Part shown: positions 7,827 through 33,354 of the stretch, one piece after another
Position numbering within the stretch: the first letter of the stretch is position 1
Layout: each line of letters begins with the position of its first letter
The notes under the pieces: model-generated
Databases searched by the model: none
Told to the model about the DNA's origin: nothing
What the model saw: the letters and a program-made list of their open reading frames with translations, nothing else
Assembly: GCF_011927795.1 (NCBI RefSeq)
Contig: NZ_JAATJJ010000001.1
Location: forward strand, 682,001 to 746,000
Source of the DNA: Saonia flava
Lineage (GTDB): Bacteria; Bacteroidota; Bacteroidia; Flavobacteriales; Flavobacteriaceae
Direction: 5' to 3'
Length of the DNA: 64,000 bases
Translations under genes and position numbers: made by a program

Positions 7827-7900
7827 GGCGAGGTAGCTCAGCTGGTTAGAGCGTCGGATTCATAACCCGGAGGCCGAGGGTTCAAGTCCCTCTCTCGCTA
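7827..7900 (+). tRNA. tRNA-Met (anticodon CAT, elongator type)
   Basis: Cloverleaf read by eye: acceptor GGCGAGG / TCTCGCT (with G-U pairs), D arm GCTC...GAGC, anticodon loop TTCATAA with CAT, T arm GAGGG-TTCAAGT-CCCTC, discriminator A. CCA is not encoded. The sequence resembles bacterial elongator tRNA-Met rather than the initiator, whose anticodon stem has three G-C pairs. A tRNA-Ile whose CAT anticodon is modified to lysidine is the alternative. The last pair of the anticodon stem is an A-C mismatch (A31/C39) in my folding. Confidence 0.92.
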
Positions 7901-7907
7901 CAAATGG

Positions 7908-7952: not shown

Positions 7953-9467
7953 CTACTCCCTCTTTACTATAACCCTTTGATATCGCGTTAAAGCAGGGAA
8001 TCCGGCATCCGTACCTTCAACAATTACATGAAACTCCTCCCCTATTTTAGCATTTTCGGGCAATTGAACCATGACAGATTCTTCTTCGGTATTGTATGTA
8101 ACAATTGCCGTTCCATCACCTGCTTCTGCATAGGGCCACACTTTAAAAGACACATCATGCCCATCTGGATCATCAAAGGCAAGATTCAGCGTGATTTTTT
8201 CACCGATAGTTGCTCTAATATTTGTTCCTTCGGCAACCTTAATCAGTGGAGCGTGGTTGGCCGCCTTAAATGATTTTATACACCAATCTGCACGGGCGGC
8301 AAAATCCATTTGCATAGATTTTATCCAGCGAGTTTGCGGATAACTGGTATCCATCTCACCGGTTTCCGGATTTAAATCCGAGGCAGCTTTACCATCCTCA
8401 TAGCGAAAAGGGTTTTCTTTAGACTTTACAAAACGACCACTCCAGCCACCACGCGAAGGATTCTCGTAATTGGCCAAGCCCACATCAACTAAATGTAAAA
8501 AGGCAGGGGAATCACCCTCAGAGATAAAATCATATTTGGAAAAACTACCACGTTCTGTTTTTGTTATTTTTGAAATATCTCCCTCAAAATGGTTGGGATC
8601 ACCCATTTGCTTTTGACCATCGCCATACGTGTAGTATTTTTTAAACAAGGGCCCATGGTTATTAATAATGTTAGGCCCCATAAAACTACCTTCCAAATAA
8701 GGTTGTTGGCTTTTGGGCACCACCATTTTCCATGGGTAAGCAAAGCACCAAAATTGATTGGCATTGTAAAAAACCCTAATCTCTGGCCAATTTGGGCCAA
8801 TGTATTTATTGTAGGTGGCATCTTGATCCATAATAGTGTAGATTATCGCTTTTTTAGAAACCTTTTCCTTAATTGCTTTCCAGTTTCTTTTCTTGGAATA
8901 GTCTTCTTCAATGGATTTTAAGGCACGGGCAATGGTATTGGTACCTCCCCAAGCCTGCAAAAAGATTTCTCTCGTGTCATCGTCCAATAATTTTTGGGCA
9001 ATCCATTCTGAACCCTCGGTGCGTTGATCCATTTCACCTTCAAAATCAATGTTACCCACCTTCACCAAATCCAATAAATCTTCAGCGGATGGATAATTTT
9101 TATCATGCAACAATAGATTGGGATGTACTTTTTTATATTCTGTCAACAATTCTTCTATCCAACTGGTTCCGGGCCAACGTAAATTGGTGATGTTTTCCCC
9201 GTAAATATTTCGAGTCATCTCCATTTCCGAAGTGAACTTGGTCCCCTTTCCATCTCCCTTCCAGTGCCACATGGAACTAGAATACACCAAACCTTCTGTA
9301 TCAAACTCATTGGTATACATAAGATAACGGATAAACGTATCTACATCGTCTATTTCTCCATCTGTGGTAACAATAGTTCTAGGTTTATCGTTTTGTGGCT
9401 GCGCAATTGTAAACAAAGGTGTTATGAGTATAATTACTTGAACTGTGAGGCAAAAAATCTTTTTCAT
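7953..9467 (-). CDS. Secreted DUF1593 nucleoside-hydrolase-like protein
   Basis: Exported protein with an N-terminal DUF1593 (Sde182-like, nucleoside-hydrolase fold) domain and a C-terminal immunoglobulin-like beta domain. The frame opens at 9539, but I place the start at ATG 9467, giving the signal peptide MKKIFCLTVQVIILITPLF ending near TIAQ. The motif RTIVTTDGEIDDVDTFIR is the Asp cluster that binds calcium in nucleoside hydrolases; WGGTNTIARAL is a second conserved block. The C-terminal 90 residues (GEKITLNLAFDDPDGHDVSF onward) form the beta domain. DUF1593 proteins were described as cellulose-associated in Saccharophagus; substrate here is unknown, but a glycosidic-bond role is plausible. 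Last gene of the leftward operon. Confidence 0.85.
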   Translation of the reverse strand: MKKIFCLTVQVIILITPLFTIAQPQNDKPRTIVTTDGEIDDVDTFIRYLMYTNEFDTEGLVYSSSMWHWKGDGKGTKFTSEMEMTRNIYGENITNLRWPGTSWIEELLTEYKKVHPNLLLHDKNYPSAEDLLDLVKVGNIDFEGEMDQRTEGSEWIAQKLLDDDTREIFLQAWGGTNTIARALKSIEEDYSKKRNWKAIKEKVSKKAIIYTIMDQDATYNKYIGPNWPEIRVFYNANQFWCFAYPWKMVVPKSQQPYLEGSFMGPNIINNHGPLFKKYYTYGDGQKQMGDPNHFEGDISKITKTERGSFSKYDFISEGDSPAFLHLVDVGLANYENPSRGGWSGRFVKSKENPFRYEDGKAASDLNPETGEMDTSYPQTRWIKSMQMDFAARADWCIKSFKAANHAPLIKVAEGTNIRATIGEKITLNLAFDDPDGHDVSFKVWPYAEAGDGTAIVTYNTEEESVMVQLPENAKIGEEFHVIVEGTDAGFPALTRYQRVIVKRE

Positions 9468-9538
9468 GTTAAAGTCATTTTCTATAACTGTTTTAATCTT
9501 AGGTTTTCTTTTGTAATTTCTGTTTAGACTATTATTCA

Positions 9539-10567
9539 TTAAAATTCTAAATAAACATCAAAAAAAGGAAGCACTTGCTGGGGAATACGACCTTCTTTGG
9601 TATAAATATCACTAACATGTGTACCTATGTATTCTTCCGAAAAATGGGCAACTCCCACATTTTCCAACTGTTGACTAAACATTTTACATTGAATAGTAAA
9701 ACGTTCGCCAGCATTCCTGCCCCAGTCTAATTTAATAGCCTTTAACTTTTTTAGATTGTCAATATAGTCCGGTACCATATATAATGGCATGTTTTTATGC
9801 CATTTTTTCAACACTTCTTGATTCACTTTTAACTGTTCATTATCGTATTCAAAAGGAAGGTCACAATAAAAGGGTGGTTTATTGGAGTTTGGTGACCAAG
9901 AACGTCCAAAAGCCATCATAACCTTACCAAAATAAGTCTTAGAAAGACCTTCTAGAGTATTTATTTCAGAAAGCTCTTTAAAGGTGTTGCTGTTAGGTCC
10001 ATATTCACGAACAATAGCCAAAGCACCGGGACTTATTGCATAAACGGTCCCAAACACCTCAGGGTATTTCATTGCTATTTTTAAGGCTCCGTAGCCACCC
10101 ATACTGTGCCCAGTGATACCACGACTTTCCTTTTTAGCAAGAGTTCGATAATTTTTATCTACATGATTTACAACATCAAAAACAGTAAAATCTTCCCAAT
10201 TACCAAAAACACCTGAATTAGAATAAAAACTTCCGTCATAAGTAGTTTTTTGGTCCGACATAACCATAATAAAAGGATCAATTTTATTTTCTACAATGGC
10301 ATAATCCAATATGCCCTGCATTTGTGTTAATAATTTATCGTCAGTAAGAAAACCATGCAAAAAATAGATGACAGGATATTTTTTATCTGATTTTCCATAA
10401 TTTGGAGGCAAATACACTGAGACAGAACGTTTAGGATTTTCCCCGAATTTATTTTCTAAATTTTTTGAATAAATAGAATCAATTACAACTTTTCCCTTGT
10501 CAATTGTTTGGCCATGAGCCAAAACACAAACACTTATCATTAAAGAGAATACTATTATTTTTTTCAT
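9539..10567 (-). CDS. Secreted alpha/beta-hydrolase esterase (esterase D / PF00756 type)
   Basis: Exported serine esterase resembling the feruloyl-esterase/S-formylglutathione-hydrolase family. The signal peptide is MKKIIVFSLMISVCVLAHGQ. The core starts with SVSVYLPPNYGKSDKKYPVI and the oxyanion segment is YFLHGFLTDD. The nucleophile Ser155 lies in GHSMGGYGALKIA. The family acts on acyl esters of carbohydrates or phenolic acids; the actual ester here is unknown. The gene lies one base after the AtuA C-terminal-domain gene, so it is surely co-transcribed with it. Length (342 residues) is normal. Confidence 0.88.
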   Translation of the reverse strand: MKKIIVFSLMISVCVLAHGQTIDKGKVVIDSIYSKNLENKFGENPKRSVSVYLPPNYGKSDKKYPVIYFLHGFLTDDKLLTQMQGILDYAIVENKIDPFIMVMSDQKTTYDGSFYSNSGVFGNWEDFTVFDVVNHVDKNYRTLAKKESRGITGHSMGGYGALKIAMKYPEVFGTVYAISPGALAIVREYGPNSNTFKELSEINTLEGLSKTYFGKVMMAFGRSWSPNSNKPPFYCDLPFEYDNEQLKVNQEVLKKWHKNMPLYMVPDYIDNLKKLKAIKLDWGRNAGERFTIQCKMFSQQLENVGVAHFSEEYIGTHVSDIYTKEGRIPQQVLPFFDVYLEF

Positions 10568-10568
10568 A

Positions 10569-10877
10569 TTATTTGGTTTTAATGGACATATCCATTAAAT
10601 GTCCCCCTAAAGATTTACCATGTTTGTCCAAAGCTAAAGAACGTGTTACTCCTCCTCCTAATGCATCATACAAGACAAAATTAAGAGCTGAAATATTTGG
10701 CAACTCATACCTAATAATTTCACCTTTAACCACTTCCGAAAAATGTTTTTTTACTTTTTCCACGGTTACTTCTTTAAGTAACAATGAATAATCCTTGTCG
10801 TGATAAGCAACAACTGAAATATTGGCAATATTTCCCTTGTCCCCTGTTCTGGAATGTGCTATTTCCCTTAATTTCAT
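10569..10877 (-). CDS. AtuA C-terminal ferredoxin-fold domain protein
   Basis: A 102-residue protein equivalent to the C-terminal domain of AtuA-type proteins. The signature MKLREIAHSRTGDKGNIANI is typical, followed by YELPNISALNFVLYDALGGG. No signal peptide, so cytoplasmic. Its ATG follows the TAA stop of the AtuA gene with no base between, in the same frame. The two therefore look like one ancestral protein split by a single stop codon, although separate genes are common in this family. Function is expected to require the partner. Exact reaction is unknown. Confidence 0.85.
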   Translation of the reverse strand: MKLREIAHSRTGDKGNIANISVVAYHDKDYSLLLKEVTVEKVKKHFSEVVKGEIIRYELPNISALNFVLYDALGGGVTRSLALDKHGKSLGGHLMDMSIKTK

Positions 10878-12227
10878 TTAGAGAGATTTATAATGGACTT
10901 CTGGTTGAACTAATGTTTCCTTTATTAATATGGATTGTATGGCCACAACTTTTTGGACATTTTTAAAAACTCCTCCACCACCTGCAGGCCCGTTGGTATA
11001 TAGTGCCTCTACTTCATTCCCAATTTTAATAGCCTCTTTTCTTGTTGATGTCCTCGCAGCCACTCGTACTCTTATTTCATAGGGATTTATATCTAATTTA
11101 GTATTCCCATATAGGGAATTTTGCCCAATACAATCAAAACGCACCTCTTTTACCTCTGGCAAATATGTAGAAATTCTAGTTTTAAGAATGGATATTGCCA
11201 ATTGCGCTCTTTCAATGGCCCCAGGTCCTCCGTAACTAATTTGGCCTTCTCCTATAAAACCATCTTCATAGCCAATAGATACTTTTAATTTGCCCGTTTT
11301 CTCCTTACCCTTACCTCCTATTACTTCAATTTTATTCTTTTCAACTTCCTTAAAAGTGACTTCACTAAAATCAGCAATTACATCGGGCGTTAGATAATTT
11401 TTAGGGTCATGAATTTCGTACAACAATTGTTCTTTACAGGTTGCTGTAGTAACCATTCCACCAGCATTGGGTAATTTGGAAATAGTAAAACTTCCTTGGG
11501 AGGTTACTTCAGCAATGGGGAAACCAAGGTTGGCCAAATCTGGAACATCTTTATAACCTGGATCAGCAAAATACCCCCCGGTAATGTGCCCTCCACACTC
11601 CATTAAATGACCTAAAATTGTGCCTTTTCCAAGGAGTTCATAATCATTAAAAGACCAACTAAATTCGTACACGAGGGGTGCAATAAAAAGGGAAGGGTCT
11701 GAAAACCTTCCAGTAATTACAATATCTGCTCCATTTTCTAGAGCTTCTACCGCAGCACTTGCCCCAATGTAGGCATTGGCGGAAATAATGGAATTCCCCA
11801 AAGAGGACATGGTTTTTTTAGTTTCTAAAAGCTCATAATCATTCTTTTGCACAAAAGTTAAAACCTCATCTCCTGTTATGGCGGCCACTTTTAACTTTTT
11901 CAGTCCCAAATTTTTCGCTACTTCTATTACCTTTTCCATGGCCGAAACAGGATTTGCAGCACCCATATTTGTTATGATTTTAACCCCATTTTGTATACAC
12001 GCAGGAAGACACATATACATACGCTCTTCCAATAAGGGATCATAACCCATTTTTGGATTCAATGATTTTCTTTGTTGCGCCAGAGCTATGGTACGTTCTG
12101 CCAAACATTCAAAAACCAAATAATCCAATTCCCCTTTCTTGGCAAGTTGCAATGCTGGTTCTATTCGGTCACCAGAATATCCGGCACCCGAACCGATTCT
12201 AATTTTTTTATTCTTCTTATCAATCAT
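10878..12227 (-). CDS. Acyclic terpene utilisation AtuA family protein (DUF1446)
   Basis: Cytoplasmic protein of the DUF1446/AtuA family. AtuA is encoded in the Pseudomonas geraniol/citronellol degradation operon, but its biochemical role is not settled. Family features are IRIGSGAGYSGDRIEPALQL at the N-terminus, YLVFECLAERTIALAQ, the ITNMGAANP motif, DIVITGRFSDPSLFIAPL and HITGGYFADPGYKDVPD. The gene starts directly after the stop of the upstream carboxylesterase and is directly followed by the AtuA C-terminal-domain gene. No acyl-CoA carboxylase genes are nearby, so the role may differ from that in Pseudomonas. Its neighbours (esterases, CitMHS transporter) suggest catabolism of a released carboxylic acid. 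Confidence 0.88.
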   Translation of the reverse strand: MIDKKNKKIRIGSGAGYSGDRIEPALQLAKKGELDYLVFECLAERTIALAQQRKSLNPKMGYDPLLEERMYMCLPACIQNGVKIITNMGAANPVSAMEKVIEVAKNLGLKKLKVAAITGDEVLTFVQKNDYELLETKKTMSSLGNSIISANAYIGASAAVEALENGADIVITGRFSDPSLFIAPLVYEFSWSFNDYELLGKGTILGHLMECGGHITGGYFADPGYKDVPDLANLGFPIAEVTSQGSFTISKLPNAGGMVTTATCKEQLLYEIHDPKNYLTPDVIADFSEVTFKEVEKNKIEVIGGKGKEKTGKLKVSIGYEDGFIGEGQISYGGPGAIERAQLAISILKTRISTYLPEVKEVRFDCIGQNSLYGNTKLDINPYEIRVRVAARTSTRKEAIKIGNEVEALYTNGPAGGGGVFKNVQKVVAIQSILIKETLVQPEVHYKSL

Positions 12228-13772
12228 TTAATCTTTCTCTATACTTCTATAATAAGAATCCCATACCTTCATTTTTCCTAAATCGGGCAATTGCTTTGTC
12301 TCAATTCTTTTGTCTATAATTACGACCTTGTTATTTATTGAATTATAAGCATTCCAAATAGGTAAGTTTTTTCCATTTGGATTACCATATTTGACAAAAT
12401 TGGTCCAATAGGTTGACATTGTATTGGCAATTTTATAATCTATTTTTTCCCAAGGCCTATCAGATGTATTCAAATTATCGTAGGCATATACTATCTCACT
12501 AGAATGAAAGGCCCCAAAATTTGTACTTTCATCATAAAAAGGAAGATTCCTATTAAAATTATAAAGGTAAACTTTTGAACTACCTGTAGTGCTTTGCATA
12601 CCAGCCCAAGTATATACCTGTAAACCAAATGTTTCGTCTCTACCTAAATGCTTTTGGGCAATACTTGCTTCTTTATCCGAATCACCTGGATATTGCTCTA
12701 AGAAAGTATCTGCCATACCTCCAAAACGAGATATCATCCATGCTTTATAGTCAGCTGAAGATCTATTTCCACTACCTACAAGATCATCTTTATTCCATCC
12801 CATAAGCATAGGTACATCATTCTGTATTCCTTCTTTATAGGTATTGTATATACTTTTAGGAATTATATATCCATCTATAACGGGCCAAGAAGTTCCGCCA
12901 GACTGTGCTAATAACTCCTCCGCACTCATTTTTCTAAGTTCTTTCAAAGAATTTACCTTCAATTCATTGGCGTATTCCAAACCTGTTGTTTCAGCACTGG
13001 CCAAATTCTGTTTTGGTCTATTGGGTTGTGTTCTAAAGCTTCCACCACTTTCAGCAATAGCTTTATGAAAGAGACCTTTTGCCAATGGAGAGGTAGTTAA
13101 ATAATTTACAGCAAAAGCACCAGCCGATTGGCCGGCAATTGTTACGTTGTTAGGGTCTCCTCCAAAGGCACTAATATTACCCTTTACCCACTTTAATGCC
13201 GCAATCATATCTAACAGAGCATAATTCCCAGAAGATTTATTTTTAGACTCTGCAGTTAACTCTGGATGAGCCATAAATCCAAAAACGCCAACACGGTAAT
13301 TAATACTAACAAATACTACGTCTTTTTTTGCAGTAGACGTACCATCATATATAGGGCATCCGCTACCTCCACTTCTAAATCCACCACCATATATATAAAC
13401 CAATACAGGTTTTTTAACTTCTTTTTTTATTGATTTTGTCCACACATTCAAATAAAGGCAATCTTCACTTATAGGAGCTTCTGGAATAAGATATTCCTTA
13501 GGCCAAAACATAAAAGGGGTTGGTTTGGCCTGCATGGGGCTTGCCCCAAATTCATAACATTTCTTAATGTCCTTCCACGGTTTTTTGGGAATAGGAGCTT
13601 TCCATCTCAATTCATTTATAGGAGGTTCGGCATAGGGAATACCCTTAAAAACCTTAATGTTTTCTTGAAGCAGAACACCTTCTACTTTTCCTGAGTTCGT
13701 CTCCACTATGGGGCCCTGGGCGATTAAAAACATAGGAGTTAATATCCATACTAATAATATGTATTTATTCAT
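12228..13772 (-). CDS. Secreted type-B carboxylesterase (first of four)
   Basis: Exported carboxylesterase/lipase of the PF00135 family. The signal peptide is MNKYILLVWILTPMFLIAQ. Conserved blocks are FKGIPYAEPP, SEDCLYLNVW (residues 102-111), the oxyanion loop YIYGGGF (126-132), and the nucleophile Ser216 in IAGQSAGAF. The catalytic His is probably in GAFHSSEIVYAY. Length (514 residues) is complete. The ATG of atuA follows its stop directly. With the CitMHS transporter and the second esterase upstream it forms a tight cluster, pointing to release and uptake of an organic acid. Substrate not known. Confidence 0.9.
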   Translation of the reverse strand: MNKYILLVWILTPMFLIAQGPIVETNSGKVEGVLLQENIKVFKGIPYAEPPINELRWKAPIPKKPWKDIKKCYEFGASPMQAKPTPFMFWPKEYLIPEAPISEDCLYLNVWTKSIKKEVKKPVLVYIYGGGFRSGGSGCPIYDGTSTAKKDVVFVSINYRVGVFGFMAHPELTAESKNKSSGNYALLDMIAALKWVKGNISAFGGDPNNVTIAGQSAGAFAVNYLTTSPLAKGLFHKAIAESGGSFRTQPNRPKQNLASAETTGLEYANELKVNSLKELRKMSAEELLAQSGGTSWPVIDGYIIPKSIYNTYKEGIQNDVPMLMGWNKDDLVGSGNRSSADYKAWMISRFGGMADTFLEQYPGDSDKEASIAQKHLGRDETFGLQVYTWAGMQSTTGSSKVYLYNFNRNLPFYDESTNFGAFHSSEIVYAYDNLNTSDRPWEKIDYKIANTMSTYWTNFVKYGNPNGKNLPIWNAYNSINNKVVIIDKRIETKQLPDLGKMKVWDSYYRSIEKD

Positions 13773-13791
13773 ATTGTACTTCTTTTCTAGG

Positions 13792-15093
13792 TTAAATGGG
13801 TATTACTCCAATTAAAATAGCAACCAAAGCCATTACAATAGTAGTTGCAAAGGCATATTTAAAAGTGAAGCGCTGGTGCTCTGCCAAATCTACTTTTGCC
13901 AATCCAATTAAAAGAAATGTAGTTGCCGTAAGCGGGCTCAGTGGGAATCCTGTAGTCATTTGACCTAAAATAGCGGCTTGTCCCACACTTATTTGTGCCA
14001 CTCCCATTTGCCCTGCTACCTCGGCTATTACAGGTAAAAAGCCAAAATAAAAGGAATCTGGATCAAATACCATACTCAATGGCATACCTGCAACTGCCAT
14101 TATAACGGGTATTTGCTGTCCCGCACTTTGGGGTATTACATTGGCTGCGGCATTTGCCATTTCCGAAATCATTCCGGATTCCTTCATAATACCCGTAAAA
14201 ACACCTGCTGCCAACAAAATACTTGCCATTAACAATGAAGCCTTGGCATGCGCATCTATTCGCTTTTTCTGCTCTGAAAGACTTGAATAATTTACGGTTA
14301 AAGCGATAATTGCTCCAAGCATAAATACTAATGCAGGAGCTATTTTTCCAGAAACCAACGTGGTAATTACCAGTATCGTCAAAGTAATATTAAACCAAAA
14401 TAAATTTGGTCTACGTAATTGACGCTCTTTATACGAAAGTTCCCTTGAGTAATGTTCATTTACATGTTTCGAAGAATCAATTTTTAACCTTTTTGCTTCT
14501 TTTTTTCCCAAATACCAAGCTACCAGAATCACAAACAATAGCCCAAACAACTGAGGTATCATAACTGGTGTGTATAAATCTGTAATTTCAACTTGCAATG
14601 CAGTTGCTGCTCTAATTGTAGGCCCCCCCCAGGGTACCAAATTCATAGTTCCTGCCCCCAAAGCTACAACACAAGCCAATACTCTACGATCCATTTGAAG
14701 TTTCTCAAACAACGGCAACATAGCAGGTATGGCAATCAAAAAAGTTACTGCTCCAGAACCATCTAAATGTACAATCATTGCAAGAACCGCCGTGCCTATT
14801 GTTATTTTGGAGGGATTGTGCCCCACTAATCTTAGAATAGTATTAATAATGGGATCAAACATGCCTGCGTCTGTAAGAACACCAAAAAAAAGTATGGCGA
14901 ACACAAACATGGCAACCACAGGTGCAATGTTCTTAATACCTTCCACTGCAAATGTTGCAGTTTCCAAACCAAATCCCGCTAGTAATGACCCTGCAATGGG
15001 GACCAAAATTAAAGCAGTTAAGGCGCTCACCTTTTTAGAAAGGATGAGCGCCAGTAAAAGTATTGTTATTCCTAATCCCGTATAGAGAATCAA
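13792..15093 (-). CDS. CitMHS-family organic-anion transporter
   Basis: Inner-membrane transporter of the CitMHS family (citrate-metal:proton symporters such as Bacillus CitM). It has 433 residues and about 12 hydrophobic segments. Recognisable features are GVLTDAGMFDPIINTILRL, MIVHLDGSGAVTFLIAIPAM (membrane re-entrant type motif) and LGAGTMNLVPWGGPTIRAAT. Citrate complexed with a divalent cation is the known substrate of the family, but other carboxylates are possible. Its start overlaps the stop of the upstream carboxylesterase by four bases, which implies translational coupling and a shared pathway: ester hydrolysis outside, acid import here. Confidence 0.88.
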   Translation of the reverse strand: MILYTGLGITILLLALILSKKVSALTALILVPIAGSLLAGFGLETATFAVEGIKNIAPVVAMFVFAILFFGVLTDAGMFDPIINTILRLVGHNPSKITIGTAVLAMIVHLDGSGAVTFLIAIPAMLPLFEKLQMDRRVLACVVALGAGTMNLVPWGGPTIRAATALQVEITDLYTPVMIPQLFGLLFVILVAWYLGKKEAKRLKIDSSKHVNEHYSRELSYKERQLRRPNLFWFNITLTILVITTLVSGKIAPALVFMLGAIIALTVNYSSLSEQKKRIDAHAKASLLMASILLAAGVFTGIMKESGMISEMANAAANVIPQSAGQQIPVIMAVAGMPLSMVFDPDSFYFGFLPVIAEVAGQMGVAQISVGQAAILGQMTTGFPLSPLTATTFLLIGLAKVDLAEHQRFTFKYAFATTIVMALVAILIGVIPI

Positions 15094-16718
15094 TTTTTAA
15101 AAGCTTTATCCAAAAACTCATACCGAGCATCATTCGTTGCTTTAATCTGCTTGCTTTGAGTATCTATTATCATTACAGGAGGCATTTTATCTTTTGCTTT
15201 TGCAGCATCCCATTGAGGGAGACCATCCATATTTGGATTTCCAGTTTTTATAAAGTTTGCAAAATAATTGGACATGTCTTCAGATACTTTAAAATCATCT
15301 TCTGTCCATGCATAATCGTCCACTAAATGAAGGTTGCCCATACAATATTCAATTTCACAAGCATGTGGTGCTCCCACAGGTTCTGGAGCTTTAGGGGCAT
15401 CTTCACTCTTTTTGACCGTCCCTCCAGCAAGTCCCGAAGCTAACGTATTGTCTCTCAATGGAGGTCGCTTTTTGCTATATAGATAGCGATAAACAGGTTG
15501 GTCGCTATGTTTTCTATGAAGATCAAACCATTTCCACGTACTGTAAGCAATAAATCTATCTGAAGATAAAGCAGTCGCGGATAATTCAATTTCCTTTTCT
15601 GTACCGGAAGGATACAATTCAAGAACCCTATTATATTCCTTAGGGTAAGCCTCCTTTACTTTGTTTTCATAATTCTCTTTTGTATAAGGGCCTTGAGTAA
15701 ATGCCATTCCAGGAATTTCGGCCGAGTTCCATCCCAATAACAACGGTACCATAGCTTGTTCTTTGCTTTCAAAAATTTCGGTTAAGGTTTTAGGCAAGAA
15801 ATAACCATCTAAAACTGCTGGAAAACCAAACCTTTTGCTTTCATTATAGATTTCATAAACATCCCTTGTGCTTAATTTTCTTAAATCTGCTATTGAGTTG
15901 TAACCTGCTTTTAATGCAAATTCCACTCCTAATTTCTCTGCTTCTTCCAGAGATACGGGAGCCATTGTAGGGTTTATACCTGCTCCGCTTTCACCAATTG
16001 CCCCAGCTATTAAATTCTTGGAAAGAGGGGAAGCCATTTGTTGGCTTACGCCTATTGACCCAGCTGACTCACCGGCGATGGTCACTTTGTTGGGATCACC
16101 CCCAAAAGCAGCTATATTTTTTTGCACCCATTTTAATGCCGCATTCTGATCTAACAGACCATAATTGCCAGAACCTTTATAGGAAGTCTCTGCACTTAAA
16201 TCTGGATGTGCCAAAAAGCCAAACACATTTAGTCTATAATTTACCGTTACAGCTACAATGCCTTTCTTGGCCATACTTTCACCATCATATCTATATTCTG
16301 AGGCATCTCCAGCAACATTGCCCCCTCCAAAGAAGTAAACCAAAACTGGCAAATCTTTTGTATTTCTTTTAGCTGGAGTCCATATATTTAAATACAGACA
16401 ATCTTCACTTACACCATTGGAGCGGGATTTCATATCACCAAAAACCATAGTTTGCATGGGTCTAGGTCCAAAAGCTTTTGTTTCTTTTACACCACTCCAA
16501 TTATCCATTGGCTGAGGTGCTTTCCATCGTAAATCCCCTACAGGTGGCTTAGCAAAAGGTACACCAAAATAGGTTTGTATTCCTGTATGGGTACTGTAGT
16601 TTCCCTCGATTATCCCATTCTCTGTTTTCGCCTGAACAGGAAACGAATTTAAATTCTGGGCATTTGTTTTGTAATACGCCATTAGTGTTAAAACACTACA
16701 TACTATTAATTTCTTCAT
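15090..16718 (-). CDS. Secreted type-B carboxylesterase (second of four)
   Basis: PF00135 esterase with signal peptide MKKLIVCSVLTLMAYYKTNA. Conserved SEDCLYLNIW (residues 104-113), oxyanion FFGGGN (129-134) and nucleophile Ser218 in IAGESAGSIG. The His is probably in GAPHACEIEYCMG. An insert rich in Pro and Ala (KKSEDAPKAPEPVGAPHA) precedes the catalytic His. It shares GESAG-type active-site context with the esterase at 12228, unlike the other two, whose elbow reads GxSGGGAK. The last four bases overlap the start of the transporter gene. Substrate not known. Confidence 0.9.
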   Translation of the reverse strand: MKKLIVCSVLTLMAYYKTNAQNLNSFPVQAKTENGIIEGNYSTHTGIQTYFGVPFAKPPVGDLRWKAPQPMDNWSGVKETKAFGPRPMQTMVFGDMKSRSNGVSEDCLYLNIWTPAKRNTKDLPVLVYFFGGGNVAGDASEYRYDGESMAKKGIVAVTVNYRLNVFGFLAHPDLSAETSYKGSGNYGLLDQNAALKWVQKNIAAFGGDPNKVTIAGESAGSIGVSQQMASPLSKNLIAGAIGESGAGINPTMAPVSLEEAEKLGVEFALKAGYNSIADLRKLSTRDVYEIYNESKRFGFPAVLDGYFLPKTLTEIFESKEQAMVPLLLGWNSAEIPGMAFTQGPYTKENYENKVKEAYPKEYNRVLELYPSGTEKEIELSATALSSDRFIAYSTWKWFDLHRKHSDQPVYRYLYSKKRPPLRDNTLASGLAGGTVKKSEDAPKAPEPVGAPHACEIEYCMGNLHLVDDYAWTEDDFKVSEDMSNYFANFIKTGNPNMDGLPQWDAAKAKDKMPPVMIIDTQSKQIKATNDARYEFLDKAFKN

Positions 16719-16747
16719 TCTGTATAAATATTAATTCTTCTTTTTGA

Positions 16748-18433
16748 TTAGTTATTAGTTTTGTTTCTTTTCTGTATAATTTCTTGCAGTTTTTCTTCAT
16801 TTACCCCAAAAATTCCGTTCTTTCCCACATCATTCATAAACTCATTGATATACTGCTGGTTTAGCTCATCACTATCTCCATATTTTGTGCGTATTTGCTC
16901 TAGTTCTTTATGAAGTTTTTTCCTTATGTCCACATAGGCGGGATCATTATATACATTTGTGAGTTCCTTTGGATCCTTTAAACGATCTATAAGTTCCCAA
17001 TGATCCATATCAAAATAGTAATGAATCAGTTTATACTCCTTGGTCACTATGGCATAATGTCTATTTACCATATGTTCTGCTGGATATTCATAGTAATGAT
17101 AATACACAGATTTTCTATTCCAATCCTCCATTTTTCCTGTAAGAATGGGCACCAGACTTTCTCCCTGCATATCCGCTGGCTGTTCCACACCCGCAACATC
17201 TAAAAAAGTTTGGGCAAAATCCAAGTTCTGCACCATTTCATCAGATTTGGACCCTGCCTTCACTTTACCTGGCCATGCTACAAGCAAAGGGGTTTTAAAA
17301 GACTCATCATAGATAAATCTTTTATCAAACCACCCATGTTCCCCTAAATAAAATCCTTGGTCAGAAGTATAAACTATTATAGTATTCTCCATCAAATTAT
17401 TTGTTTCAAGATAATCCAAGAGCCTTCCCACATTTTCATCCACAGCCTTGATTGTCCCCAAATAATCCTGCATATATCTTTGATATCGCCACTTCATCAA
17501 TTCTTCTTCACTCATCTTAGGGTAGGCTTCTTTAAATTCATCGTTTATTTTTTGGTAGGCATTTTTAAAATTTGCCATTTGTGTAGTGTCTAGGCGATCT
17601 TTAATACCAAAACTATATCTTAGTTTGTCTATGCCGATTTCAGGAAGTCCCATTGCATCAATGGTTTCAGGAAAAATTTTGGAGTCCCCCGTCCAGCTAA
17701 GATGTTTAAGAATACTCATTTCTGCCTCTTTCGCTGCAGGCCTTGATTTATAATCATCAAAAAGTGTTTCTGGTTCTGGAATTATTTTATTGGTAAACTC
17801 TTCCATATGGCGTTCCGCCATTACCCATGACCTATGTGGTGCTTTATGCAAATACATCAACATAAAGGGATCCTCTTCTTTACGTTCATTTTCAAGCCAA
17901 TCAAGGGTCATATCCGTAATAATATCCGTTACATACCCTTTCACATTTATCTCCCCATCATTTTTTGTTATAAAATCCGGATTGTAGTAGGCACCTTGCC
18001 CCGGAAGAATTTTAAACTGATCAAAGCCTTTTGGGTTGTTTCCAAAATGGAGCTTGCCGAACATTGCTGTTTGATACCCTGAATTTTGTAGAATTTGAGG
18101 AAAGGTTACGTTGGTGGTATCAAATGGAAAGTGGTTATCTATTTTACCATTAATGTGGGAATGTTTTCCAGTTAAAATAACAGCTCTAGATGGTGCACAA
18201 ATTGAATTTGTAACACTTGCATTGGTAAACAGCATACCCATTTCTGCAATTCGGTCAATGTTTGGTGTTTTTATTAGGCGGTTATCATAGGCCGATATCG
18301 CCTGATAGGCATGATCGTCGGACATAATGAATATAATATTGGGTCGCTTATTTGTTTTCTCTTCTTCTTTTGTTTGGCATCCTGAAAAAATAAATAGTAT
18401 AACTAAGGGCAATACTGCTGAATATTTATTCAT
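16748..18433 (-). CDS. Lipoprotein sulfatase (type I, formylglycine-dependent)
   Basis: Sulfate-ester hydrolase. The N-terminus is a lipoprotein signal, MNKYSAVLPLVILFIFSGCQ, with lipobox Cys19. The metal-binding start is RPNIIFIMSDDHAYQA. The maturation motif CAPSR has Cys79 as the residue oxidised to formylglycine. Further sulfatase features are FGKLHFGNNPKGFD, YTSDQGFYLGEHGWFDKRF and the metal-site lysine context. The 561-residue length is complete. No anSME maturase is present in the window. It is the promoter-proximal gene of the leftward operon, 29 bases before the next gene, so sulfate removal is tied to the esterase steps. Substrate probably a sulfated glycan or glycoside. Confidence 0.9.
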   Translation of the reverse strand: MNKYSAVLPLVILFIFSGCQTKEEEKTNKRPNIIFIMSDDHAYQAISAYDNRLIKTPNIDRIAEMGMLFTNASVTNSICAPSRAVILTGKHSHINGKIDNHFPFDTTNVTFPQILQNSGYQTAMFGKLHFGNNPKGFDQFKILPGQGAYYNPDFITKNDGEINVKGYVTDIITDMTLDWLENERKEEDPFMLMYLHKAPHRSWVMAERHMEEFTNKIIPEPETLFDDYKSRPAAKEAEMSILKHLSWTGDSKIFPETIDAMGLPEIGIDKLRYSFGIKDRLDTTQMANFKNAYQKINDEFKEAYPKMSEEELMKWRYQRYMQDYLGTIKAVDENVGRLLDYLETNNLMENTIIVYTSDQGFYLGEHGWFDKRFIYDESFKTPLLVAWPGKVKAGSKSDEMVQNLDFAQTFLDVAGVEQPADMQGESLVPILTGKMEDWNRKSVYYHYYEYPAEHMVNRHYAIVTKEYKLIHYYFDMDHWELIDRLKDPKELTNVYNDPAYVDIRKKLHKELEQIRTKYGDSDELNQQYINEFMNDVGKNGIFGVNEEKLQEIIQKRNKTNN

Positions 18434-18576: not shown

Positions 18577-19296
18577 ATGGATATCCCATCTAAAGAAGGC
18601 TTTCTTTCCAATATTGCATATGACTCTGTAATATTTGGTTTTTCAGGGAACACCTTAAAAATCTTAATTCTAGAATATCACAACACAGGTTTTTTTGCTT
18701 TGCCCGGTGGTTTTGTAAAAATAGATGAGGACTTAAATGATGCTGTGAAGAGAGGACTAAAAGAGCGAACAGGTCTTGACAAAATTTTTTTAGAGCAGTT
18801 CTATACTTTTGGAAAAACTTCCAGAAAAGATTCAGCTGCCATGGAGACCATTTTAAAAGCAAATGGTTTTAAAGTGGATAAGCAAAGTTGGCTTCTTGAT
18901 CGTTTTATTTCTGTAGCATATTATGCGCTAATTAATTATGAAGATGTTTCTCCACAACCAGACGAACTTTCAGATTCCATAAACTGGTACCCCATTGATG
19001 AATTACCACCCCTAATTTTTGGTCATGATGAAATAGTTAAAAAAGCCATTCAAACTTTAAGGGACAATCTGGAAAGAAAATTGGTTGGAATCAACCTACT
19101 GCCGAGTAAGTTCACCATGAAGGAGCTCCAACAAGTGCATGAAGCTATTTTAAATAAAAAACTTCGAAGAACAACTTTTCAGCGTAAAATGTTGGGTATG
19201 GAAATATTGGAACGACATGAAAAACAATTTTCCGGAAAGGCCCACAAAGCCCCATATCTATATAGTTTTAATAAGGTTACTAGTGGGCAACAATGA
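18577..19296 (+). CDS. Nudix-related transcriptional regulator (NrtR/AraR type)
   Basis: Nudix-fold domain (about residues 10-145) plus a C-terminal winged helix (about 155-230), the architecture of NrtR and of the Bacteroides arabinose regulator AraR. The Nudix box begins GGFVKIDEDLNDAVKRGLKE and ends RTGL. The consensus REUxEE is changed to RGLKER, so two of three catalytic glutamates are missing and hydrolase activity is unlikely; the domain probably senses a sugar or derivative. The C-terminal half has FTMKELQQVHEAIL and RTTFQRKMLGMEIL, typical of the wing. It is divergent from the sulfatase operon and upstream of GH78, so regulation of these genes is likely. No signal peptide. Confidence 0.88.
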   Translation: MDIPSKEGFLSNIAYDSVIFGFSGNTLKILILEYHNTGFFALPGGFVKIDEDLNDAVKRGLKERTGLDKIFLEQFYTFGKTSRKDSAAMETILKANGFKVDKQSWLLDRFISVAYYALINYEDVSPQPDELSDSINWYPIDELPPLIFGHDEIVKKAIQTLRDNLERKLVGINLLPSKFTMKELQQVHEAILNKKLRRTTFQRKMLGMEILERHEKQFSGKAHKAPYLYSFNKVTSGQQ

Positions 19297-19353: not shown

Positions 19354-19415
19354 AAGCCTTTTAAATAAACTTGTTATCTGGTATTTTCCAAGAAAACTTT
19401 ATTAATGATAACACG

Positions 19416-22400
19416 ATGTTGATGATAAAAACAAAAAACTACAAAGCGACAACCTATGCACTGTTTATAGTTTTGCTATTTCATAACCTTTTATGTTTTT
19501 CCCAAACAGAAATAGGCAATTTAAAAGTAGAGTATCAAAAAGAACCATTGGGAATTGATATTGAAAAACCTCAGTTCAGTTGGCAAATGATTGCGATTGA
19601 TGAGGCCAGAAACCAGTATCAAACTGCTTATAGACTTGTTGTAAAAAGCGAGAATGACGAAATAGTGTGGGATACGGAGAATGTGATTTCCGATGAATCC
19701 CTGGCCATTCAATACAATGGAAAACCTTTAAAGTCATCAACACGATATAACTGGACTGTTTCTGTATGGAATCAAGACCAAAAAGAAATTAAATCCTCTT
19801 CTTGGTTTGAGACGGGCTTACTGAATCCAGATTCGAACCTATCAGCATGGAATGGAGCAAAATGGATTGGTGGCACTGCTGAAGATATACCATTTAACTC
19901 CCATTATTTATCCGTATTTAAAGTGCACTATGAACTTCAGCTTGATGAAAAATCCAAAAGTACCAAAGCGGCATTTGTTTTTGGAGGAAATGATTCTCGG
20001 TTAATGGATCACAACAAAAATATACAAGGTGTAGAGTCTAAGGTAAATGGAAATTATATTGCTTTTGAGTTGGATATTGAAAACATAGATGGTACACCAG
20101 AAGGTCTGGCCAAATTCAATGTGTATAGAGTAGGTTATGATAAGGCCGACACAAAAGATATTCCTTTTAGAAGTTTTGATATTCCACTTCAACTAATAAA
20201 TATTGAAAACAAATATGCTTCACACGAATTTAATGTAGAATCTAATTTTGGCATTTTTGAAGTTTTCCTCAATGGCCAAAAGAATGAAAATAAAATAGTC
20301 AGAACAGAAAACCCTAGCCCTTCACCCTACGCCAATAATGGTATGAACTTAAATCCTGTAGGAAAAGGGAATGATTATATCTGTTTTCCTGTGGTGGGAG
20401 ACATTGGATTTTCCATAGAAAAAAAGCAAAAGGCATATTTTACCAATTTTCAAATTAAAAATTATAGGAGTCCATCAAACAATTTATTCCTTGAAGAACT
20501 GGATGAAGACTACAAGGGTATTTTCAAAAACATTCCAATTAAAAATGAATCGTACTTTCTAGATGGCCGTAAAGAAGGGTTGCTTTTGCTAAAGAACCCA
20601 AGCAAAAATTCTACCCCCATACTTAGAACTACATTTTCAACAAACAATAAAAAGATCAGCAAAGCACGTTTGTATGTGACAGCAAGGGGTATTTATGAAA
20701 TGTACCTAAATGGTGAAAGAATAAGTGAAGACTATTTTAATCCAGGACTTACACAGTACAACAAAACCCATATGTACCAAACCTATGATGTGACCAATAA
20801 AATACAGAACAACAGCTCCAATTCAATAGGCGCAATGTTGGGAGAAGGATGGTGGAGCGGAAATATCACCTACAGTGGAGAACATTGGAACTACTTTGGG
20901 GACAGGCAATCCTTATTGACCCAACTTATTATCACTTATGAGGATGGTAGCGAACAAATAGTTGTTTCCAAACCGAAAACATGGAACTATTTTAATAATG
21001 GGCCCATTGTTACAGGAAGTTATTTTCAGGGAGAAGTATATGATGCTAGAAAAGAGAAGGGTATAGAGGGTTGGGCAACCGCTGCATATGATGATCATTC
21101 GTGGAAATCCGCTGTAGAAATTCCAATTGAAGGTACTACCTTTTTGGAATCCAGTACAGACTTGTCTGGAACCCCAACAAATTTTAATTATGATGATTTA
21201 CAATTGATCGGTCAGATTGGCAAGAATGTTCAAATTGTAAAAACATTGTCTGCGCAAAGTGTAGAAGAAGTGAGGCCGGGTGTTTTTGTTTATGATATGG
21301 GTCAAAATATGGTAGGATTCCCAAATATTTCCTTGGGAAAAGGGCAAAAAAATGATACAGTTACCTTGCGCTATGCGGAGGTGAAGTATCCCGACCTATC
21401 CGAATACAAGGATAATGTGGGGATGATTATGCTAGAAAATATTAGAGCAGCATTGACTCAAGACCTGTACATTAGAAAAGGTCAATTAAATGAAGTAATA
21501 CAACCAATATTTACTTTTCACGGATATCGGTTTTTAGAAATTACGGGAATAAATGAACCCCTTCCCTTGGAAGCGGTTAAAGGAAAAGTGTTAAGTTCCA
21601 TAAATGGGTTGGCGTCCAGTTATGAGACTTCTAATGAGCTGGTGAACAAACTTTGGGAAAATATAACCTGGTCTATGCGTGGCAACTTTCTTTCCATTCC
21701 CACAGATACTCCTGCAAGAAATGAACGTATGGGTTGGAGCGGGGATATTAATGTATTTTCCAAAGCCGCCACCTATATTGCAAATGCAAATCCTTTTCTT
21801 AAAAGACATATGATGGCCATGAGAGATATCCAGGCCAAGAATGGACGTTTTACAGATGTTGCACCAGTTGGTGGAGGTTTTGGAGGTACTTTGTGGGGAA
21901 GTGCAGGTATTATTGTAGCTTGGGAAACCTACCGGCAATATGGAGACAAGCAGCTTCTTAGGGAGCATTATCCTGCGATGAAAAAGTATATTGCGTTCTT
22001 GGCTTCTAAAGAAAATGAAGAAGGTGTTATAGAAGAAGGTCCCTTAGGCGATTGGCTAAGCCCAGAAGGAAAAAAGAATGACAATACCTTACTATGGAAT
22101 GCCTATCAAGTATATGATTTGGAAATTGTATCTAAGATAGCTACGCTATTGGGGTATAGTGAAGATGCAATTAAGTTTAAAGAAGCCTACACTAAGCGCA
22201 AAGCATTTTTTAATAAAACCTATGTGCACCAAACTAGTAAGAAGACCATAGGTACAGGGAGGGAATCATTTAGTTTTGGACCTCCATTGCCAGCAGAAAA
22301 AAAGCCAAAACCTGGGGATTTAGTGGATAGTCAAGCATCCTATGCCATACCATTGGCACTAAATGTTGTGGATGATGGTAGCAAGGTCAAGTTTGCCGAG

Positions 22401-23066
22401 CATTTAGCCCATACCATTTCTAGAAAAAATATAGATGATAGTGGCATGGAAAGACCTGCCTATTCTCTAATGACAGGCTTTATAGGCACAGCATCTATTA
22501 GTGAGGCACTATCACAAAACAATTACAATGCCCATGCATACCGTTTATTGCAACAAGAACAATATCCATCATGGCTATATTCTGTGAAAAATGGCGCCAC
22601 TACTATTTGGGAACGCCTAAATTCTTATACCGTTGAAAATGGTTTCGGAGGCAATAACAGCATGAATTCTTTTAATCACTATTCTTTTGGGGCGGTTGCT
22701 GCTTGGATGAACAATTATTCTTTAGGTATTCAACGACATGAAAAAAAACCCGCATTCAAAGAATTTATTCTACAGCCAACGCCAGACCCGGATGGTGTAA
22801 TGACCTGGGCTAAAGGCCACTATGATTCTATGTATGGCACTATTAAAAGTGAGTGGAAACAAGTAGATGGTACATTGTACTATGTCGCAACGGTTCCAGC
22901 CAATACTAAAGCAACCCTTTATTTGCCATCAGACTCTTTAAAGAAAATTACAGAGAGTGGTAAAAAAGTAAAGAAAAGCAAAGGAGTTAAGTTTTTAGGT
23001 AAAGAGGAAGATAAACTTATTTTTCACCTAAAATCTGGCACTTATGAATTTGAAATAAAAAAGTAA
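19416..23066 (+). CDS. GH78 alpha-L-rhamnosidase (large, multidomain)
   Basis: Secreted inverting glycosidase removing terminal alpha-L-rhamnose. Start chosen at ATG 19416; the frame opens at 19371, but the upstream 15 codons precede a good signal peptide. An ATG two codons later (19422) is also possible. The mature part begins near TEIGNLKVEYQKEPLGID. An inserted beta-sandwich-like region occupies about residues 160-370. The rhamnosidase N-terminal sugar-binding domain follows (RLYVTARGIYEMYLNGERIS). The catalytic (alpha/alpha)6 domain carries TDTPARNERMGWSGDINVF, matching the conserved acid-bearing motif of GH78, and GATTIWERLNSY near the C-terminus. A beta-sandwich ends the chain. About 1216 residues is longer than most GH78 enzymes because of the insert. 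Confidence 0.93.
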   Translation: MLMIKTKNYKATTYALFIVLLFHNLLCFSQTEIGNLKVEYQKEPLGIDIEKPQFSWQMIAIDEARNQYQTAYRLVVKSENDEIVWDTENVISDESLAIQYNGKPLKSSTRYNWTVSVWNQDQKEIKSSSWFETGLLNPDSNLSAWNGAKWIGGTAEDIPFNSHYLSVFKVHYELQLDEKSKSTKAAFVFGGNDSRLMDHNKNIQGVESKVNGNYIAFELDIENIDGTPEGLAKFNVYRVGYDKADTKDIPFRSFDIPLQLINIENKYASHEFNVESNFGIFEVFLNGQKNENKIVRTENPSPSPYANNGMNLNPVGKGNDYICFPVVGDIGFSIEKKQKAYFTNFQIKNYRSPSNNLFLEELDEDYKGIFKNIPIKNESYFLDGRKEGLLLLKNPSKNSTPILRTTFSTNNKKISKARLYVTARGIYEMYLNGERISEDYFNPGLTQYNKTHMYQTYDVTNKIQNNSSNSIGAMLGEGWWSGNITYSGEHWNYFGDRQSLLTQLIITYEDGSEQIVVSKPKTWNYFNNGPIVTGSYFQGEVYDARKEKGIEGWATAAYDDHSWKSAVEIPIEGTTFLESSTDLSGTPTNFNYDDLQLIGQIGKNVQIVKTLSAQSVEEVRPGVFVYDMGQNMVGFPNISLGKGQKNDTVTLRYAEVKYPDLSEYKDNVGMIMLENIRAALTQDLYIRKGQLNEVIQPIFTFHGYRFLEITGINEPLPLEAVKGKVLSSINGLASSYETSNELVNKLWENITWSMRGNFLSIPTDTPARNERMGWSGDINVFSKAATYIANANPFLKRHMMAMRDIQAKNGRFTDVAPVGGGFGGTLWGSAGIIVAWETYRQYGDKQLLREHYPAMKKYIAFLASKENEEGVIEEGPLGDWLSPEGKKNDNTLLWNAYQVYDLEIVSKIATLLGYSEDAIKFKEAYTKRKAFFNKTYVHQTSKKTIGTGRESFSFGPPLPAEKKPKPGDLVDSQASYAIPLALNVVDDGSKVKFAEHLAHTISRKNIDDSGMERPAYSLMTGFIGTASISEALSQNNYNAHAYRLLQQEQYPSWLYSVKNGATTIWERLNSYTVENGFGGNNSMNSFNHYSFGAVAAWMNNYSLGIQRHEKKPAFKEFILQPTPDPDGVMTWAKGHYDSMYGTIKSEWKQVDGTLYYVATVPANTKATLYLPSDSLKKITESGKKVKKSKGVKFLGKEEDKLIFHLKSGTYEFEIKK

Positions 23067-23085: not shown

Positions 23086-24693
23086 ATGAAAAAAGTAAAT
23101 CTAGTAGTTATGCTTCTTGCTTGCATAACAAGTGTTTTTGCCCAAGAGGTAATAACAGGGAACAATGTAGCTGTGACCAATACCGAGTCCGGCAAAGTAC
23201 GCGGATATATTCACAATGATATTTATACCTATAAAGGTATTCCATATGCACAAGCGGAACGTTTTACGGCTCCTTCAAAGCCTGCGCCATGGGAGGGTGT
23301 AAGAAGTTCAACCATGTATGGGCCAGTCGCACCATTATTAAGTCCTACAACTTCTATCCAGGATGAATCAGAATTTGTTTTTGACCATGATTGGGGGTAT
23401 ACAAATGAAGATTGCTTACGAGTAAATGTCTGGACCCCTGGGATAAATGACGGCAAAAAAAGACCTGTCCTGTTCTGGATTCACGGAGGTGGTTTTACAG
23501 CAGGCTCTAGCCAAGAACTTCCGTCATATGATGGAGAAAATTTAAGCAAAAAAGGAGATGTGGTCGTTGTATCCATAAACCATAGATTAAATGTGCTGGG
23601 CTTTCTAGATTTATCTGCCTACGGAGAAAAGTACAAGCATTCCGCAAACAACAGTATTTTGGATATGGTCGCTGCCCTAGAATGGGTAAAAACCAACATT
23701 TCCAACTTCGGTGGAGACCCCAACAATGTAACCATTTTTGGTCAATCAGGAGGAGGTGCCAAAGTAAATACATTAATGGCAATGCCAAAAGCCAGTGGAC
23801 TGTTCCATAAGGCCATTAACCAAAGTGGAGCTTTTAGAAGCGGTATTTTAGAAAAAGAAGACACACAACGGATTGGAGCAGAGACTTTAGCTGCATTAAA
23901 TTTGGATGCCTCACAGGTAGATAGTCTACAAACTATTCCTTTTGCCGAGCTATCTGCAGCAAGTAGCAAAGCCTTAGAGGTAGTGGCCGAAAAAATGAAA
24001 GCAGAAGGGAAACCAGTTATAGGCTTTGGTCTAAGTTGGGGACCAAGTAGAGACGGTAATGACCTTCCGTATCAAGTTAATTCAGAGGAGGCCTACGCTT
24101 TATCAAAACACATTCCTCTAATGATTGGAACGGTAAAGAACGAATTTGCTCCTTTTGCCAACATGCGGTTTTTAAATGCTAGCGAAGAAGAAATCATGGC
24201 TCATATTAAGAATCAATACAAAGAAAAGGCAGATGCCTATTTAAAAGCGGTTAAAAAGGCATATCCAAATGATACCGCACCCAAAGACTTATTGGATGTT
24301 GACACAACTTTTAGGCCTGGAGCAGTTGCACAAGCCAATACTAAATCTGCTTTAAAAGGAGGAGCTCCTGTATACATGTATTTATTTACTTGGCAATCAC
24401 CGGTATTTAATGGCAAATACAAATCCCTTCATTGTATGGAATTACCTTTTGTATTTGACAATATTGAAAAGGCCAATAAGATGACTGGAGGTGGTAAAGA
24501 AGCTCATGTATTAGCAGGGAAGATGAGCCAAGCTTGGATAAATTTTGCAACAACAGGAAATCCAAATAATAGTAGTTTGCCAAATTGGCCAACCTATACA
24601 AGCAGTAATACGGCTACTATGCATTTTGATACTACTTGTGAAGTGAAGCCACAATTAGATAAAGAATTATTTGAAATAGTAAGTGGAAATTAA
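23086..24693 (+). CDS. Secreted type-B carboxylesterase (third of four)
   Basis: PF00135 esterase, 535 residues, signal peptide MKKVNLVVMLLACITSVFAQ. Conserved NEDCLRVNVWTP (residues 108-118), oxyanion WIHGGGF (131-137), and nucleophile Ser221 in IFGQSGGGAKVNTL. Catalytic His probably in KSLHCMELPFVF. The GxSGGGAK elbow groups it with the fourth esterase at 44376, which also neighbours a GH78 gene. It lies 19 bases after the rhamnosidase gene and just before GH3, so deacylation and rhamnose removal probably act on the same substrate. The exact ester is unknown. Confidence 0.9.
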   Translation: MKKVNLVVMLLACITSVFAQEVITGNNVAVTNTESGKVRGYIHNDIYTYKGIPYAQAERFTAPSKPAPWEGVRSSTMYGPVAPLLSPTTSIQDESEFVFDHDWGYTNEDCLRVNVWTPGINDGKKRPVLFWIHGGGFTAGSSQELPSYDGENLSKKGDVVVVSINHRLNVLGFLDLSAYGEKYKHSANNSILDMVAALEWVKTNISNFGGDPNNVTIFGQSGGGAKVNTLMAMPKASGLFHKAINQSGAFRSGILEKEDTQRIGAETLAALNLDASQVDSLQTIPFAELSAASSKALEVVAEKMKAEGKPVIGFGLSWGPSRDGNDLPYQVNSEEAYALSKHIPLMIGTVKNEFAPFANMRFLNASEEEIMAHIKNQYKEKADAYLKAVKKAYPNDTAPKDLLDVDTTFRPGAVAQANTKSALKGGAPVYMYLFTWQSPVFNGKYKSLHCMELPFVFDNIEKANKMTGGGKEAHVLAGKMSQAWINFATTGNPNNSSLPNWPTYTSSNTATMHFDTTCEVKPQLDKELFEIVSGN

Positions 24694-24703
24694 AAAAGTA
24701 AAA

Positions 24704-33352: not shown

Positions 33353-33354
33353 TA

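Follow-up and report, generated by a model that had tools for sequence, protein, structure and literature searches.

The window analysed here is a 64,000-nucleotide stretch of the Saonia flava genome (positions 682,001 to 746,000 of contig NZ_JAATJJ010000001.1), and its subject is an operon of eight minus-strand open reading frames (ORFs), filling positions 7953-18433 in tandem, in which an AtuA protein and a small ferredoxin-like partner are encoded alongside a CitMHS transporter and three secreted esterases. Families were assigned from Pfam and NCBIfam profile matches of the window proteins. In transcriptional order, the genes encode a secreted sulfatase with a lipoprotein-like start and a CAPSR motif at residue 79, classed as accessory (16748-18433; PF00884, 179 bits, and SGSH_C, 239 bits); a secreted carboxylesterase, est135a, proposed to be an acyl esterase (15090-16718; PF00135, 366 bits; GESAG motif); the CitMHS transporter, with 11 hydrophobic segments and the only TIGR00784 match in the genome (13792-15093; 422.7 bits, passing the cut-off of 259.7); a second secreted carboxylesterase, est135b (12228-13772; PF00135, 368 bits; GQSAG motif); AtuA, the only PF07287 match in the genome and the proposed lyase subunit A (10878-12227; 520.2 bits, gathering score 22.8); the AtuA ferredoxin-like protein, the proposed subunit B (10569-10877; PF23544, 126 bits, gathering score 27); a secreted esterase of a different family, est756 (9539-10567; PF00756, 96.6 bits; GHSMG motif); and a secreted Sde182_NH-like (DUF1593) protein, also classed as accessory (7953-9539; PF07632, 237.5 bits, and PF21027, 63 bits).

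The eight-gene leftward operon is real. A preliminary description of this DNA had reported eight leftward genes with small gaps or overlaps and had named a family for each; the ORF calls and profile matches bear out both, the successive spacings being 29, -4, 19, 0, 0, 1 and -1 bases, with the 4-base overlap shared by est135a and CitMHS. The last spacing would be about 71 bases if the DUF1593 gene begins at an internal ATG that precedes a signal-peptide-like stretch. Judged by eye, the sulfatase, the esterases and the DUF1593 protein have signal-peptide-like starts, whereas no hydrophobic segment is seen in either AtuA or its partner, so ester cleavage probably takes place outside the cytoplasm and AtuA probably acts within it.

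The order of these genes is not due to chance, because other genera and phyla also have the CitMHS-AtuA-partner unit. A scan of genome contigs found 16 AtuA relatives, of which the 12 at 52-59% identity lie in the order CitMHS, AtuA, partner on a single strand; no CitMHS was seen near the remaining four, at 34-41%. In a larger set of 47 close-clade loci, CitMHS is next to AtuA in 38 (12/12 named loci, 16/25 from searches of Pseudomonadota, Bacillota and Orbaceae, 9/9 from Bacteroidota, and the window itself) as against none of 18 hand-picked distant-clade loci, comprising eight from Bacteroidota, five weaker matches, four from the contig scan and G202 (Fisher 9e-10); one of these, L014, is short, with 2.4 kb ahead of AtuA and 0.8 kb behind it. 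The ferredoxin-like partner gene follows AtuA in all 47 close-clade loci. On a 65-row AtuA tree, the distant rows fall on one side of a branch whose support, 59, is not strong, and the distribution of CitMHS linkage requires seven changes, compared with 20.9 when labels are shuffled.

Within the family of the window organism, six of 249 genomes drawn have an AtuA match, five of them, counting the window, in the close clade (at least 52% identity) and the sixth at 38%. A CitMHS above cut-off is found only in the five with a close AtuA (Fisher 1.3e-10, uncorrected for relatedness), each having a single copy that adjoins AtuA; genome G066 has just a fragment scoring 26.6 bits, below cut-off. Five close-clade genomes at the class level likewise each have one copy adjoining AtuA, and no CitMHS above cut-off was detected in the nine distant-clade genomes tested. 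A separate sample of the Bacteroidota phylum contained AtuA matches in 152 of 395 genomes, 146 of which belong to a second, distant AtuA group; where identities are listed, these are at most 42% to the window protein, and there is no CitMHS in the eight loci read.

The Bacteroidota loci of the close clade also share esterases. A relative of a window esterase lies within approximately 5 kb of AtuA in all 11 such loci (nine genomes, the Flavobacteriaceae metagenome-assembled genome L010 and the window), and PF00135 relatives are present in the stretches read of nine, those of G172 and G368 being the exceptions. Relatives of est135a are 68-82% identical (G104, G222, G247, G321, G429), those of est135b 45-49% (G222, G321, G354, L010) and those of est756 55-80% (G104, G172, G222, G247, G368, G429, L010). 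By contrast, no window esterase was matched within 20 kb at eight distant-clade Bacteroidota AtuA loci (E 1e-10, 30% coverage). The sulfatase has a 64% relative in just one of the ten other loci (G429), and a further locus has only weak fragments at 27-33%; DUF1593 relatives occur in three (G104, G247, L010). As esterases recur to this extent and the sulfatase does not, the conserved unit is esterase, CitMHS, AtuA and partner, with the sulfatase optional. For instance, about 15 kb of L010 holds two DUF1593 genes, GH78, CitMHS, AtuA, the partner, a PF00756 gene, a regulator and two PF00135 genes. A scan of 87 of the 114 proteins listed as Bacteroidota neighbours with weak or no matches to genes of the window gave PF00756 as the commonest family (seven members).

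Some of these loci have individual peculiarities. In G247 (L030-L031), compared with window positions 9539-16718, CitMHS is 82% identical and est135a and est756 are 80% identical, while AtuA is only 52% identical, a pattern suggestive of an in-place replacement of AtuA. L064 and L068, from two genomes of one genus (G321, G354), have methylmalonyl-CoA mutase genes near the AtuA module. Several independent recruitments of AtuA into esterase clusters were considered, the tree placing the 11 Bacteroidota copies in three groups, but neither constraining these into one group (p-AU 0.216) nor holding six copies together (window, G104, L010, G172, G222 and G247; p-AU 0.451) was rejected, and this idea was dropped.

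The structural evidence on AtuA points to a lyase. Searched alone against PDB sequences, it matched first 9erq/9evf, annotated 'AtuA family protein | Citramalate lyase, subunit A', at an E-value of 0.21, followed only by an unrelated chain at 0.56; an 11-sequence AtuA profile returned 9erq/9evf as its only row, at 2.1e-8, with GR..DP, EC and LYE..DP as common stretches. An AlphaFold2 model (predicted local distance difference test, pLDDT, 88.7) aligns with 9evf, the 'Citramalate lyase - ADP - pyruvate complex', in both Foldseek (E 3.7e-27, TM 0.70) and VIA (Z 31.4, rmsd 5.3, 415 residues aligned, 16% identity), the next VIA row having a Z of 10.5 over 90 residues. AtuA therefore has the overall fold of citramalate lyase CmlA, its sole whole-length match among the solved structures listed, and is a probable acetate-releasing lyase encoded beside its transporter. 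The two differ in that the window protein is linked to CitMHS and its bee-gut relatives also to CoA-transferase and thiolase genes. PDB searches found no solved relative of the ferredoxin-like partner; in all 11 aligned sequences of this protein the stretches R.GDKG and G.T..L..D..GK are invariant, and they could form ligand-binding loops.

Citramalate lyase converts a tertiary hydroxy acid to an oxo acid and acetate. By analogy, 3-hydroxy-3-methylglutarate (HMG), which has the same bond arrangement, would be cleaved to acetoacetate and acetate. The acetate-releasing lyase step of the Pseudomonas terpene (Atu) pathway, which acts on 3-hydroxy-3-isohexenylglutaryl-coenzyme A (CoA), would be the same chemistry. 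The AtuA of that pathway belongs to the same Pfam family, PF07287, and has an AtuA_ferredoxin domain; in the window there are instead two separate proteins and an acid transporter. Genes for an acyl-CoA carboxylase and an acyl-CoA dehydrogenase accompany AtuA in the Pseudomonas pathway, but neither these families nor an acyl-CoA ligase were found among 27 window proteins scanned with Pfam (up to 48.9 kb), in agreement with the preliminary description for carboxylase and dehydrogenase.

A product of the predicted reaction is suggested by gene linkage in bee-gut bacteria. Snodgrassella and Orbaceae harbour a LysR-CitMHS-AtuA-ferredoxin operon whose products are 57-59% (AtuA), 50-51% (CitMHS) and 64-68% (partner) identical to those of the window; it has LysR in place of the NrtR-like regulator found in the window, and none of the window's esterases or glycosidases were found nearby. 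In all eight Neisseriaceae loci (seven Snodgrassella and one uncultured) and in G898, the partner gene is followed on the same strand by two CoA-transferase subunit genes and a thiolase gene; in the Orbaceae locus L011 CoA-transferase and thiolase genes also follow, together with one for a TIGR00366 membrane protein. The two subunits, which we take to be AtoD and AtoA, score above cut-offs in L005 (NF007394, acetate CoA-transferase alpha, 371.8 against 315; TIGR02428, 3-oxoacid CoA-transferase B, 303 against 244). Across 44 Orbaceae genomes, a pair of PF01144 matches is present in all seven with AtuA and in two of the 37 without (Fisher 9e-7 on pairs), one further AtuA-less genome having a single match in a 496-residue frame; CitMHS is likewise present in all seven, and in none of the ten AtuA-less genomes tested. 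No HMG-CoA lyase above the model cut-off (246 bits) was found in the eight Neisseriaceae genomes, seven having best matches of 59-64 bits in frames of 608-612 residues and the eighth none. In Bacteroidota, the window genome has its PF01144 pair elsewhere (C1:2303163-2304444) and eight of nine relatives also have one, the halves in G368 lying on different contigs; in Bacteroidota such a pair is only permissive.

The physiology of Snodgrassella alvi is consistent with such a route. According to one study, this species depletes HMG in the bee gut, where a legend lists it, and not Gilliamella, as the exclusive depleter, and HMG consumption is described as conserved in five strains; added to citrate, HMG raised the growth rate 3.5-fold and was accompanied by acetate production, while there was no growth on HMG alone (PMC11343714). 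The same study cites work linking ketone-body degradation genes to better growth in the gut, and AtuA, CitM, a lyase, acetoacetate and a transporter go unmentioned in its main text. Given the gene linkage, this physiology and the lack of an HMG-CoA lyase above cut-off in the genomes searched, the AtuA pair suggests itself as a candidate for the enzyme step left unnamed in S. alvi HMG use. Within the literature collection searched, no paper combined two or more of HMG, acyclic terpene utilization, CitMHS, citramalate lyase and hydroxymethylglutarate lyase.

Computation shows the gene content, the co-occurrence, the fold and, in bee-gut bacteria, the linkage of related modules to genes for a CoA-transferase and a thiolase; from these we infer the substrate, product, CoA independence and esterase specificity of the module as follows, in a reading that we hold with belief and doubt in about equal parts. 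The operon would form the acyl-ester branch of a rhamnoside-utilisation region, its two PF00135 esterases and one PF00756 esterase freeing HMG from acylated rhamnose-containing glycosides outside the cell, with the assistance of a divergently encoded GH78 rhamnosidase and GH3 glycosidase. CitMHS would import the HMG, which AtuA and its partner would split into acetoacetate and acetate through chemistry of the citramalate lyase type, without passing through HMG-CoA. The acetoacetate would then be activated by a CoA-transferase of two subunits, whose genes lie elsewhere in the genome. HMG esters are known to decorate flavonoid glycosides of plants, rhamnosyl ones among them (PMC11044239), and the sulfatase may point to sulfated glycosides as a source. 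The preliminary description had proposed ester release, CitMHS uptake and AtuA processing of a polycarboxylic acid, with HMG as one of two named examples; that scheme fits the evidence, but the sulfatase and DUF1593 protein are not supported as fixed parts of the cluster. Neither the solved citramalate lyase in the AtuA family nor the CoA-transferase and thiolase linkage in HMG-consuming bee symbionts was part of that description.

The genes around the operon support a rhamnoside context. A divergent, rightward group begins with an NrtR/AraR-like protein combining Nudix and winged-helix domains (18577-19296, plus strand; NrtR_WHD, 64 bits, and NUDIX, 34 bits), likely to be the local regulator of the operon; it was matched in six of the ten other Bacteroidota loci (64-71% in G104, G222, G247, G321 and G429; 37% in L010). 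The group continues on the same strand with a GH78 alpha-L-rhamnosidase (19371-23066; PF17389, 318 bits), with 60-61% relatives in three of the ten (G222, G247, L010); a carboxylesterase, est135c (23086-24693; PF00135, 330 bits), with 59-79% relatives in G104, G222, G247, G429, G486 and L010; and a GH3 glycosidase (24683-27016; PF00933, 120 bits), with relatives at 79% in G222, 63% in G247 and 33-34% in G104 and G429. An outer-membrane beta-barrel protein gene also belongs to this group. Co-occurrence of the core genes beside GH78 had been raised in the preliminary description. Its core held, CitMHS adjoining AtuA and a related esterase lying within about 5 kb in all nine other Bacteroidota genomes with a close AtuA and in L010; the link to GH78 extends only to the three loci just named.

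Further along, minus-strand genes at 32174-38202 encode L-rhamnose catabolism: L-lactate dehydrogenase-like, rhamnulokinase-like and rhamnose isomerase-like proteins and a rhamnulose-1-phosphate aldolase/dehydrogenase fusion. The fusion is the only one of the rhamnose genes above cut-offs (NF006191, 1342 bits against 1240; TIGR02632, 938.5 bits), the kinase-like and isomerase-like proteins matching their families below cut-off. SusC-like and SusD genes, a fourth PF00135 esterase gene and a second GH78-like gene follow on the plus strand (39497-48449). GH78 and L-rhamnose catabolism thus lie in one region, and the whole looks, from its gene content, like a rhamnoside-utilisation region. As in Bacteroidota rhamnoside loci, GH78, GH3, the rhamnose pathway and SusCD occur within the same 30 kb, to which the window adds an organic-acid uptake and lyase branch. 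A 470-residue protein in the rhamnose cluster (30758-32170, minus strand) has no Pfam match and a weak match to NCS1 (TIGR00800, 44 of 353 bits), and is perhaps its sugar transporter. Six successive leftward ORFs of about 640-810 residues each occupy 49642-63996 (minus strand), and a tRNA-Met gene (7827-7901, plus strand) lies directly beyond the operon end, a possible insertion point for the cluster.

Several observations weigh against HMG cleavage to acetoacetate by the window module. No assay of HMG is known to us for any of these AtuA proteins. The window AtuA shares only 16-17% identity with citramalate lyase, too little for the substrate to be transferred, and the ADP in 9evf hints at a nucleotide dependence that is hard to place in the proposed route. 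No CoA-transferase or thiolase genes adjoin the module in any of the 11 loci from Bacteroidota. Every locus with a CoA-transferase link belongs to a single 16-row group of the tree (support 99) from which the window is excluded, so the window enzyme may have a different substrate, and six of the seven Orbaceae loci in that group themselves have no such genes adjacent. PF01144 is absent from the AtuA-bearing genomes G486, L010 and L002, and the adjacent CoA-transferase could serve acetate instead. HMG-CoA-lyase-like genes scoring 188-204 bits, below the same cut-off, occur in the ten Bacteroidota genomes searched, hence this cut-off is coarse and a CoA route is possible there. Lastly, nine close-clade loci have no CitMHS, three of which adjoin other identified transport genes: G1037 has one for a TRAP permease, G787 those for an ABC solute-binding protein with its permease, and G965 one for a periplasmic binding protein.

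Two alternatives to HMG as substrate appear unlikely, and to the same degree. AtuA and its partner might be a true citramalate lyase, with the esterases freeing citramalate, CitMHS importing it, and pyruvate and acetate as products. The only solved family member found has this activity, and pyruvate needs no CoA-transferase, matching the absence of one beside the Bacteroidota modules; however, the window AtuA is very distant from it, as the single-sequence E-value indicates, and in the bee-gut relatives, linkage to CoA-transferase and thiolase genes argues for acetoacetate. Alternatively, the pair might cleave citrate or another tricarboxylate to an oxo acid and acetate, the esterases acting on citrate esters. 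TIGR00784 is named for a citrate:proton symporter, and CitMHS could carry citrate, since S. alvi has a single CitMHS and also consumes and grows on this acid (PMC11343714). The same study reports citrate depletion by Gilliamella, yet AtuA is absent from 37 of 44 Orbaceae genomes (the Gilliamella share of which was not identified), and the co-occurrence with CoA-transferase fits acetoacetate. A respiring cell, moreover, needs no dedicated lyase for citrate.

Slightly less probable is that the grouping is one of bystanders, with the esterases acting on acetyl or feruloyl decorations and CitMHS-AtuA serving unrelated free acids. PF00135 and PF00756 span many substrates, and the non-Bacteroidota loci read have none of the window's esterases, save a weak 31% match in G787, implying that the module works on free acids outside Bacteroidota. 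Against this stand the contrast in esterase linkage between close- and distant-clade Bacteroidota loci and the overlap of esterase and transporter genes. The survey of neighbours outside Bacteroidota covered 24 close-clade loci, with AtuA recovered by ORF calling in 18 and missed in L081, L083, L085, L088, L091 and L094; 98 of 162 listed proteins, from 15 loci, were scanned, leaving out L087, L092, L100 and many short ORFs. A common extra neighbour was discarded as a candidate, no family occurring in more than four of the 98, the commonest being a transport component. Least likely of all is that the substrate is a terpenoid acid or a longer 3-hydroxy-3-alkylglutarate, as it is in the Pseudomonas Atu pathway, and possibly a CoA thioester like that used by the Pseudomonas AtuA. 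PF07287 is named for acyclic terpene use, but the 27 window proteins scanned include no acyl-CoA ligase, carboxylase or dehydrogenase, and all five family genomes have a linked acid transporter of the CitMHS type.

The finding is real and conserved, and the system is best classed as a lyase module of the AtuA family, predicted to act on HMG and tied to the removal of esters in rhamnoside loci. A broader proposal, made with somewhat more doubt than belief, is that a CoA-free HMG route, comprising CitMHS and a two-protein AtuA lyase, extends across Bacteroidota, Pseudomonadota and Bacillota and accounts for how bee-gut Snodgrassella uses HMG. In Bacteroidota this route would have become part of loci that strip HMG from acylated rhamnosides. 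The module would provide concrete enzyme and transporter candidates for the conversion of host HMG to acetate by Snodgrassella in the honey-bee gut, and testable chemistry for a widespread family named after terpene use. It also leads to the proposal that some glycoside-utilisation loci collect not only the sugar but also the acyl group.

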